Assembly (NCBI GenBank): GCA_900290095.1
Contig: OKQS01000001.1
Coordinates: forward strand, 612,431-676,430
Length of the DNA: 64,000 nt
Source: Khoudiadiopia massiliensis
GTDB lineage: Bacteria > Bacillota > Clostridia > Tissierellales > Peptoniphilaceae
Direction of reading: 5' to 3'
In this document: in pieces, positions 55,776-60,191 of the stretch
How positions within the stretch are numbered: position 1 is the stretch's first letter
How the letters are laid out: each line of letters starts with the position of its first letter
Program-made: the position numbers and the translations under genes
Notes under the pieces: model-generated
What the model was told of the DNA's origin: nothing
What the model saw: the letters and a program-made list of their open reading frames with translations, nothing else
Database searches by the model: none

Positions 55776-56336
55776 CTACTTGGTAAAGTGTCCCTCAGCC
55801 GGGCTGATCATGCCATAATTTCCGGCCTTTCTTCTATATACAACTGAGAGGGTATCAAGGTCCATATTGAGGAAGAGGAAGAAGTCATGGCCCAAAAGCT
55901 CCATCTGCATAACAGCTTCTTCAGGTGTCATGGGCTTGACATCTATTTCCTTTACCCTCTCAAGATCAACACCTTCGCCGGCCTGAGCCTCTTCGGGCAG
56001 GTCTTTGATTTCTTCGAATACCAGGCCTGTTTTTGTCTTCCTATGCTTCTTCTGCAATTTGGTCTTGAATTTTCTTATCTGTGATACCAGGGCATCCACG
56101 CATTGGTCCACACTCTGCAGCATATCGAAGGAGGATTGGTCTGCACGGAAAATCGTATCTGAACCCGGCACAGGAATTGTTATTTCAACCCTTTTATGCT
56201 GGCCCTCAGTGGACATGGTTATGGTTGCCTGAACGTCTTCTTCAAAGTACTTGTCAAGCCTGTTTACTTTTGACAAGGTTTCTTCTTTGAAATTGTCGCG
56301 AACGTGAATATTCTTACCTACAAAACGAGCTTTCAT
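55776..56336 (-). CDS. hpf: Ribosome hibernation promoting factor, long form
   Basis: 186 residues. The N-terminal S30AE domain (about 1-100; MKARFVGKNIHVRDNFKEE, then IPVPGSDTIFRADQSS and KKHRK) binds the decoding region of 30S. The C-terminal dimerisation domain has VVYRRKAGNYGMISP, which pairs two 70S ribosomes into 100S dimers. AAAAGGAGG precedes the ATG. It lies upstream of secA as in other Bacillota, though a lipoprotein gene now separates them. Confidence 0.94.
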   Translation of the reverse strand: MKARFVGKNIHVRDNFKEETLSKVNRLDKYFEEDVQATITMSTEGQHKRVEITIPVPGSDTIFRADQSSFDMLQSVDQCVDALVSQIRKFKTKLQKKHRKTKTGLVFEEIKDLPEEAQAGEGVDLERVKEIDVKPMTPEEAVMQMELLGHDFFLFLNMDLDTLSVVYRRKAGNYGMISPAEGHFTK

Positions 56337-56892
56337 AGCGTCCTCCTTTTCTATTAATTCAATTTTACCCTATTTTCACCTTTAGCGGAGAATTTTGGGA
56401 AAAAGTTTTCATATTTTTTCTCTAAAATGCCAAGAGGGTCCGAAAAAAGAATATTAATTAATCCTTAAATTTCAAAGCCCATGTTTTAGACCTTTGAATA
56501 AATATTTTTCAATTTGCCGTTTTACACCATGCTTAAATCTTGTGGGAAAAGGTGGGAAAATATTGTGGATAATGTTGATAATTTTCTGTATAAGCCTTTA
56601 TAAGCCATTTTTATCCACAAGTTGTCCACATTTTGGTGGATAACTTGTGGACTTTACTAAAATTTGACATTTCCTTTACTTTTTGTATGCAATCTTCTCC
56701 ACCTAAAATATGCCCATTTGCTTGAAAAAATATTCTCTCACTTGTGGTTTTCAATTTACAGTCCACCCCATATTGTGGCCTGAACAATTGTTCCCTTTGA
56801 GTTTTTTGAAATATTATTAGGTCTCCATACCTTGGGTATAAATAATTTCCGAAAGATAGAAAAGTTTTTCTGAGTTATGGAAAGGAAATAAT
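56337..56892. other. 556-base AT-rich intergenic region between hpf and a glutaredoxin gene
   Basis: Largest gap in the window, lying between divergently transcribed genes. It contains an AT-rich stretch (about 56440-56515), the DnaA-box cluster (56564-56651), scattered TGTGG/CCACA fragments up to about 56780, and the upstream region of the glutaredoxin gene. No open frame with a ribosome binding site and no tRNA are seen. Gene direction and strand composition do not switch here. Confidence 0.7.
56564..56651. repeat. DnaA-box cluster with near-perfect 16-bp inverted repeat
   Basis: Two perfect DnaA boxes (TGTGGATAA 56564-56572; TTATCCACA 56611-56619) and three one-mismatch boxes (56573-56581, 56622-56630, 56635-56643) lie within 80 bases on both strands. 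Positions 56614-56629 and 56636-56651 form arms TCCACAAGTTGTCCAC / GTGGATAACTTGTGGA with one G-T mismatch and a six-base loop. Confidence 0.75.
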
Positions 56893-57195
56893 ATGAAAAA
56901 ATTAGTTCTCTATAAAAAAGATGTCTGCCCCTACTGCCAAAAAGTCATGAACTTCATGGACAAAAACGGCATCGACAGCGTTGAAATGAAGGATATTATT
57001 GAAGATCCAAAAAATGAGGAGTTCTTGATAAAAGAGGGTGGACTTGATCAGGTTCCCTGCCTCTTTATCGACGGCAAGGCTATGTATGAGTCTGATGACA
57101 TCATTGAATACTTGAAAGAAAGCCTCCTGCAGGGAAAAGATATTTCCGAATCAAAGGATGATCAGGCTTCTGACGGTATGTGCCCCATATTCTAA
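56893..57195 (+). CDS. Glutaredoxin-like protein with cysteine tail
   Basis: 100 residues. Thioredoxin fold with KKDVCPYCQKVMNFMDKNGI (active site CPYC), the cis-Pro segment DQVPCLFIDGKAMYESDD and IIEYLKE, as in glutaredoxins. After the domain comes a polar tail ending in MCPIF, so the protein has four cysteines. Substrate is unknown; reduction of disulfides or mycothiol/glutathione-like mixed disulfides are options. AAAGGA sits six bases before the ATG. It stands alone on the plus strand, closed by a hairpin terminator. Confidence 0.88.
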   Translation: MKKLVLYKKDVCPYCQKVMNFMDKNGIDSVEMKDIIEDPKNEEFLIKEGGLDQVPCLFIDGKAMYESDDIIEYLKESLLQGKDISESKDDQASDGMCPIF

Positions 57196-58244: not shown

Positions 58245-60191
58245 TCAAAATTGGTCATCCTCTTCATCAAAGAGCATGGCCAGCTCGAGCCACGAATCCC
58301 CAAGTTCCTCTTTTTCCTTGGCTATATTTGAAAGCCGGTCATGCAGAGACATGGCTTCCTCATAGTTTTCATAAAGAGTCCCGTCCAAAGCCTTCTTCTG
58401 CAATTCCGCTTCTTTTTCAGTCAGTTCTTTAATTTTATCATCAATTTCTTTCATTTGGGTCTTTAGTCGCCTAATTTCTTTCTTGGCCAGCTTTTCCTTT
58501 TTTCTTTCCTTTTTCTTTTGGGTTTCTGTCAGCAAGGCCGAGTCTGAATTTTCTTCTTCCTTTTTATTCACTGAATCTATATAGGCCAGATAGTCATCGT
58601 AATTTCCCTTAACCTCTTCAATGCCTCCCTCTGTCAGGCGGAGGATTTTCTTACAGACCCTGTTTAGAAAATATCGGTCGTGGCTTATGGCAAGCACAGT
58701 CCCCTCATAGTCCCTCAGGGCATTTTCCAGGATTTCCCGGCTCTCCATATCGAGATGGTTTGTGGGCTCGTCCATTAGAAGAAGATTGGCTTGTGAAAGC
58801 ATTAGCTTGAGTAGGGCCAGCCTGGCTTTTTCACCGCCTGAGAGGCCTCCGACTTTTCTGAACAGGGTATCCCCCTTAAACTGGAACTTGGCCAAGTTTG
58901 ACCTGACCTCGTAGCGGTCCATCTGCGGATAGGCCGACCAGAATTCTTCAATAACGGTATTGTCATCATCCAAGGTCTTTTGCTCCTGGTCGAAATAGGC
59001 CACCTTAACAGCCGATCCGAAGCGTATATCTCCCCCGTCAATGCCTTCTTTTTTCATAAGCATCCTGAAAAGGGTTGTCTTTCCTGCCCCGTTTGGACCT
59101 ATAAGCCCGGCTTTTTCCCCCCTGCCCAGGTAAAAACTCAGGTTTTTAAAAAGGGGCCTACCGTCAAAGCTTTTTTCAAGGTCCTCAACTATCAGGACAT
59201 CATCTCCCGACCTGTACCTGGCTTTTAGGTTAAAGGCCATCTGCTTTTGATCTTTTGGCGGGAGCTCTATCCTCTCCATCTTGTCAAGGAGTTTTTGCCT
59301 TGACCTGGATTGGGAAATCCCCCTCTTCCTCTTGGATCCTCCAAGCTTTGACAGCCTTTCAATTATTTCTTCCTGGCGGGCAATCTCTTCCTGCTGGTTT
59401 TCATAGGCTCTTTCAAGGATTTCCAGATCCTTGGCCCTCCTAACCGTGTATTCCCCGTAGCCGCAGTTATATATATGTATTTTTTTGCCTTGGATCAAAA
59501 AGGTCCTGTCGGCCAACTTGTCCAGGAAATACCTGTCGTGGGAAATAATCATACAGGCTCCCCTGAAATCCCCAATAAAGTTCTCCAAAAATCTTATGGC
59601 GTCTATGTCAAGATGGTTGGTGGGCTCGTCCAGTAGGAGCATGTCGGGCCGGCCGCTCAGCATTTGAGCAAGCTCCAATCTCGATTTTTCCCCACCCGAA
59701 AGGACATTGACAGGATCATCATACCTGTCCTCGCTGAATCCCATGCCCTTCAATATCCCCTTAATTTCAGACATATAGGAAAGGCCGCCCTCTTCCTCAA
59801 ACTTATCTGTAAGCCACTGGTAGTCACTCATGATCCTGGTCAGTTCTTCCTTGGTCTGCTTTTCTCCCATGAGTTTTTCCAAGCGCCCCATCTTTTTTTC
59901 TATTTCAAAAGCCCGCCAATAGGCCTTTTTACATTCTTCGAAGATGCTGTTTTCCGACTCTATGTGGACATTTTGCTTTAAATAGGCAATCCTCAGGTCC
60001 CCGCTTTTAAAGATATTCCCCGAGTCGACCTCCATTTCTCCTACAATCATGCGGAAAAGGCTGGTTTTGCCAACTCCGTTTGCCCCGATGATGGCCACCT
60101 TGTCCCCGTCATCGATCTGAAAGCTGACGTCATTTATTATGGTTTTATCAGCAAAGCTCTTGGTTAAATTGTCAACAGTCAGTATGGCCAT
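58245..60191 (-). CDS. ABC-F family ribosome-associated ATPase (YdiF-like)
   Basis: 648 residues with two ABC ATPase domains and no transmembrane part. First Walker A GANGVGKTSLFRMIVGE and signature VLSGGEKSRLELAQML; second Walker A GPNGAGKTTLFRMLMKK and signature GLSGGEKARLALLKLM. The interdomain linker (about 235-310) is basic and helical, and the C-terminus is a Lys/Glu-rich coiled coil, as in Uup/YdiF. ABC-F proteins resolve stalled ribosomes or give antibiotic protection; the housekeeping YdiF type is favoured by its place next to rex, as in Bacillus. Confidence 0.92.
   Translation of the reverse strand: MAILTVDNLTKSFADKTIINDVSFQIDDGDKVAIIGANGVGKTSLFRMIVGEMEVDSGNIFKSGDLRIAYLKQNVHIESENSIFEECKKAYWRAFEIEKKMGRLEKLMGEKQTKEELTRIMSDYQWLTDKFEEEGGLSYMSEIKGILKGMGFSEDRYDDPVNVLSGGEKSRLELAQMLSGRPDMLLLDEPTNHLDIDAIRFLENFIGDFRGACMIISHDRYFLDKLADRTFLIQGKKIHIYNCGYGEYTVRRAKDLEILERAYENQQEEIARQEEIIERLSKLGGSKRKRGISQSRSRQKLLDKMERIELPPKDQKQMAFNLKARYRSGDDVLIVEDLEKSFDGRPLFKNLSFYLGRGEKAGLIGPNGAGKTTLFRMLMKKEGIDGGDIRFGSAVKVAYFDQEQKTLDDDNTVIEEFWSAYPQMDRYEVRSNLAKFQFKGDTLFRKVGGLSGGEKARLALLKLMLSQANLLLMDEPTNHLDMESREILENALRDYEGTVLAISHDRYFLNRVCKKILRLTEGGIEEVKGNYDDYLAYIDSVNKKEEENSDSALLTETQKKKERKKEKLAKKEIRRLKTQMKEIDDKIKELTEKEAELQKKALDGTLYENYEEAMSLHDRLSNIAKEKEELGDSWLELAMLFDEEDDQF

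Follow-up and report, generated by a model that had tools for sequence, protein, structure and literature searches.

A cluster of DnaA boxes lies upstream of hpf, the gene for the ribosome hibernation promoting factor, in Khoudiadiopia massiliensis, and clusters in this position are kept by many members of its family and order and in part of the class Clostridia. The cluster probably functions in control, as a sink for DnaA or as a switch for hpf, and of these we favour, at a probability of about one-half, a DnaA-binding sink of the kind formed by the oriC-distal clusters of Bacillus subtilis. The link with hpf appears to be new, though priority is not proven: the open-access literature searched yielded no paper connecting DnaA boxes with hpf (yvyD). 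Clusters of DnaA boxes outside oriC are known in a few model species, and whether they serve as sinks, as switches or in the control of promoters is disputed.

The DnaA-box cluster

The features discussed below are numbered by position in the window, by which we mean the whole stretch of 64,000 nucleotides analysed. Sites with at most one mismatch to TTATCCACA were counted as boxes.

55776-56336, minus strand: hpf, long-form ribosome hibernation promoting factor (S30AE plus C-terminal domain)
56365-56370, minus strand: GGGTAA, candidate hpf promoter motif (GGGTAW is kept in relatives; the -35 match is poor here)
56494-56505, no strand assigned: AT-rich element TTGAATAAATAT (on the hpf strand ATATTTATTCAA), which many relatives also have between their array and hpf
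56564-56643, no strand assigned: DnaA-box cluster, five boxes spread over 80 bp, two of them perfect
56564-56572, minus strand: box 1, TTATCCACA, perfect
56573-56581, minus strand: box 2, TTATCAACA
56564-56581, minus strand: abutting direct pair TTATCAACA-TTATCCACA (hpf-strand reading), corresponding to the pair that abuts in the core array of the order
56585-56593, minus strand: sixth, weak DnaA-box-like site, TTATACAGA
56611-56619, plus strand: box 3, TTATCCACA, perfect
56622-56630, plus strand: box 4, TTGTCCACA
56635-56643, minus strand: box 5, TTATCCACC
56614-56651, no strand assigned: inverted repeat (arms 56614-56629 and 56636-56651), built from inverted DnaA boxes
56893-57195, plus strand: glutaredoxin-like gene, divergent neighbour, whose adjacency to the cluster is not conserved
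58245-60191: ydiF, 1.6 kb from the cluster

The five boxes, two of them perfect, stand within 80 bases just where the original prediction, made from the sequence of the window, had placed them, and the AT-rich flank that it described on their left is also present. Their number is well beyond chance: five are found in 88 bp, and neither 3000 dinucleotide shuffles of the 556-bp intergenic region nor 40 shuffles of the whole window ever gave more than two in such a length. A scan of all 10 contigs of the available genome (1.53 Mb, in an assembly that is 88% complete and of which about 36 kb reads N, including 32 kb of contig C10 together with contigs C1 and C3) revealed three or more one-mismatch boxes at only two places, the cluster upstream of hpf and the oriC cluster in front of dnaA (C8:261094-261348). 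Across the window as a whole, the looser pattern TTWTNCACA (at most one mismatch) is in excess, occurring 191 times as against 122.5 (sd 11.3) in shuffles. A tandem repeat array was looked for and none was found.

The predicted inverted repeat is likewise real, with 16-nt arms, a 6-nt loop and one mismatch, and it folds as single-stranded DNA at -15.7 kcal/mol (z -4.9). The cruciform proposed on this basis stands as a fold and falls as a separate device, being a by-product of inverted boxes that only the closest clade shares. A conserved function as cruciform or RNA hairpin was rejected because the arrays seen at the level of the order are mostly direct repeats; it is only the boxes that are shared.

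Conservation upstream of hpf

Genomes were compared at the levels of family, order and class. Three or more boxes within 450 bp upstream of hpf were present in 31 of 60 relatives, as against none of 99 control windows, and TTATCCACA emerged, unselected, as the commonest 9-mer in 88 hpf upstream regions from 50 genomes, with no occurrence at all in 87 control stretches taken 1 kb further up. The array typical of the order reads TTATCCACA, 21 bp, TTTTCCACA, 3 bp, an abutting TTATNCACA and TTATCCACA, 14 bp, and TTATCCACA, followed by an inverted box. When 130 genomes of the order were searched for its spaced three-box core, allowing up to 3 mismatches, 74 places were found, 57 of them upstream of hpf at 77-1165 bp (median 189 bp) and every one of these 57 on the hpf strand; the hpf-upstream share was 11/11 among exact matches and 16/17 among those with one mismatch.

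Clusters at hpf extend through the family and the order into several other families of the class, with examples in Murdochiella, Alkaliphilus, Caloranaerobacter, Thermohalobacter, Paraclostridium and Anaerotignum; in the few Lactobacillus-type, Alicyclobacillus and Brevibacillus loci inspected, the region just upstream of hpf showed none. The closest clade (G014, G023, G036, Murdochiella and, loosely, G006) differs in box spacing from the rest of the order. It shares with K. massiliensis an inverted pair, TTATCCAC-N4/5-TGTGGATA, on the hpf-distal side, and several of its members have abutting direct boxes nearer hpf. A lack of conservation in close relatives had been named as the outcome that would count against the prediction, and the opposite was found; this conservation supports two of the roles that had been put forward, a DnaA titration or reservoir site and a control site linked to hpf.

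The array adjoins hpf in 16 of 20 neighbourhoods, and the genes on its other side are of at least seven kinds (among them flgN and an ArAE exporter, identified by Pfam, the remainder being assigned by reading). In one of the 20 there is just a pair of boxes, and in three genomes, from two class-level families, the cluster lies 3.3-4.4 kb upstream of hpf, behind an apparent transporter operon. A glutaredoxin gene beside the cluster was seen only here and in G006. Since the upstream neighbours vary and the glutaredoxin gene is usually elsewhere, the element belongs with hpf, and the suggestion that it might serve as a glutaredoxin promoter was dropped: most relatives have the cluster at hpf and that gene in some other place.

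Two other elements lie upstream of the glutaredoxin gene. One is a perfect 12-bp palindrome, GAACAATTGTTC (56782-56793), resembling a Gram-positive LexA box; the other, ATACCTTGGGTAT (56827-56839), could be an operator of the CsoR/CstR type or else a promoter motif, GGGTAT, such as hpf has.

The candidate hpf promoter motif

Between the array and hpf there are further conserved elements. The AT-rich element takes the form AATAAATAT in 20 of 88 hpf upstream regions and in one of 87 controls. The motif GGGTAW precedes hpf in 70 of the 88 (about 13 in shuffles), and in 39 it is accompanied by a good GTTTA-like -35 sequence (one in shuffles), often at 13-15 bp. We take this motif to resemble the promoters recognized by sigma-B, sigma-F and sigma-G. 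A regular-expression search of the K. massiliensis genome for a corresponding sigma factor returned an RpoD-like protein only; a promoter-like GTTTA-N14-GGGTAT sequence stands before hpf (for example, at loci L103, L101 and L095) even where there is no obvious matching sigma factor. The distance from the last box to GGGTAW varies, mostly between about 20 and 290 bp, and the motif is retained in genomes that have no array.

The replication origin lies elsewhere

The combination of several boxes with an AT-rich flank is what might be expected of a secondary or relic origin, which had been among the possibilities raised, and cumulative GC skew over the whole genome had been proposed as the means of checking it. 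The skew passes from minus to plus at about 260 kb on contig C8, its minimum and the site of dnaA, and it changes back at about 158 kb on C10, the contig that carries the hpf cluster; the cluster therefore does not adjoin dnaA and dnaN. Around it the skew is -0.108 on the left and -0.133 on the right, so that, as had been claimed, its sign does not switch, and the window forms part of one long negative-skew arm. Five single-contig relatives likewise show no switch of sign at hpf. What looks like a complete oriC is already present at dnaA, whose flanks hold oriC1 boxes and an oriC2-like dnaA-dnaN spacer in which, by eye, a perfect box and trio-like repeats can be made out, and inspection by eye revealed no DnaA-trio at hpf. 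It is thus most improbable that the cluster is an active secondary origin or the relic of one, and we excluded this reading on the grounds of skew and of the position of dnaA. In 11 single-contig genomes the clusters lie 5-22% of the genome length from dnaA. C8:100391-100774 codes for a second protein with a Bac_DnaA domain, weak at 40 bits, which may be a helicase loader or a regulator related to DnaA.

A second cluster between tsaD and ydiF

In seven of eight genomes of the order tested, a further cluster is found where the 3' ends of tsaD (gcp) and ydiF converge (it was noted in relatives L353, L356, L357, L358, L360, L361, L363 and L386). A strong DnaA site of B. subtilis occupies the same position, 'downstream of gcp; downstream of ydiF' (PMC4447404). 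The genome of K. massiliensis has kept the cluster at hpf and has none between tsaD and ydiF. Within the family, 15 genomes have a cluster at hpf only, six at ydiF only and two at both, while 14 of 37 have one at neither place; as the two are often kept singly, they provide natural deletions for comparison. Some family members that have neither possess clusters of DnaA boxes at other sites (L312/L313 in G005 and G292, and L311 in G015).

Sink or switch?

As in the oriC-distal clusters of B. subtilis, the boxes at hpf are several, intergenic, clustered beyond chance and situated away from oriC. Binding of DnaA, its titration, and any effects on initiation and on hpf are what we infer for this cluster. 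A fixed site upstream of hpf would bind several DnaA molecules and so remove them from the free pool; passage of the replication fork would double the cluster, providing a second sink, and re-initiation at oriC might then be delayed. We also count in favour of the sink the early initiation of B. subtilis lacking all six of its non-oriC clusters, which has been interpreted as sensitivity to free DnaA (PMC13220808). The sink is further favoured by a spacing within the array that is fixed in the order, combined with a variable distance to the hpf promoter motif, by the persistence of that motif in genomes lacking the array, and by the three genomes in which other genes come between array and hpf. 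The same is true of the cluster between tsaD and ydiF, where two 3' ends meet and no promoter is expected, of the patchy way in which one or other site has been kept, of the fact that the cluster is the only one outside oriC found in the available genome, and of the range of distances from dnaA. A pure sink, on the other hand, needs neither the uniform orientation of the core on the hpf strand nor its constant adjacency to hpf, and the family members with a cluster at neither place also speak against a sink.

These last features of orientation and adjacency, with the varied genes on the far side, are what would be expected if DnaA regulated the transcription of hpf, with the array as an upstream operator that acts from a distance on the GGGTAW-type promoter and couples ribosome hibernation to the level or nucleotide state of DnaA; DnaA is known to regulate promoters such as that of sda in B. 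subtilis (PMC4447404). The DnaA-regulated promoters of sda and dnaA in that organism have, like hpf, a box cluster upstream of the gene; at hpf the boxes are indeed conserved with the gene, but the geometry between boxes and promoter motif is not constant. The survival of the motif without the array, the block of genes that can part the two, and the similar clusters at the tsaD-ydiF 3' ends all weigh against such control of hpf, which we regard as the main alternative, held tentatively. Sink and hpf control can both hold, and it is with the same reserve that we entertain direct control of hpf by DnaA across the order and part of the class from an array that is also a sink. Unlikely, in our judgement, is a site of the datA or DARS type that goes beyond binding to alter the nucleotide state of DnaA by hydrolysis or reactivation. 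Such assemblies, which go with sites for partner proteins (IHF/Fis), need the kind of lineage-fixed order, orientation and spacing of boxes that is found here, and at 55 nM ATP-DnaA recovered 16-fold more gcp-ydiF DNA of B. subtilis than did ADP-DnaA (PMC4447404); against this, spacing in the closest clade is unlike that in the rest of the order, and datA, DARS1 and DARS2 are reported to be absent from B. subtilis (PMC13220808).

Comparison with known systems and significance

The hpf cluster departs from those of B. subtilis in its conserved place, upstream of hpf, and in a fixed spacing that is specific to the lineage; hpf (yvyD) is not among the strong B. subtilis sites given in the main text of PMC4447404. 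It is the gcp (tsaD)/ydiF cluster of that organism that has its counterpart, at the same position, in relatives of K. massiliensis. The datA, DARS1 and DARS2 loci of Escherichia coli (PMC4585315, PMC5010248) are also non-coding DnaA-box loci at a conserved distance from oriC, but they differ from the hpf cluster in their neighbours and in the group of organisms concerned. The bipartite oriC of clostridia (oriC1/oriC2; PMC7561715) comprises clusters of the same box as the hpf site, which differs in not lying by dnaA and in having neither a skew switch nor, by eye, a DnaA-trio.

Clusters at hpf and at tsaD-ydiF, the latter a position shared with B. subtilis, thus persist over many genera, and they suggest a connection, open to testing, of the replication initiator with ribosome hibernation. 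If DnaA does control hpf, the state of replication initiation would set the number of ribosomes that are put to sleep.
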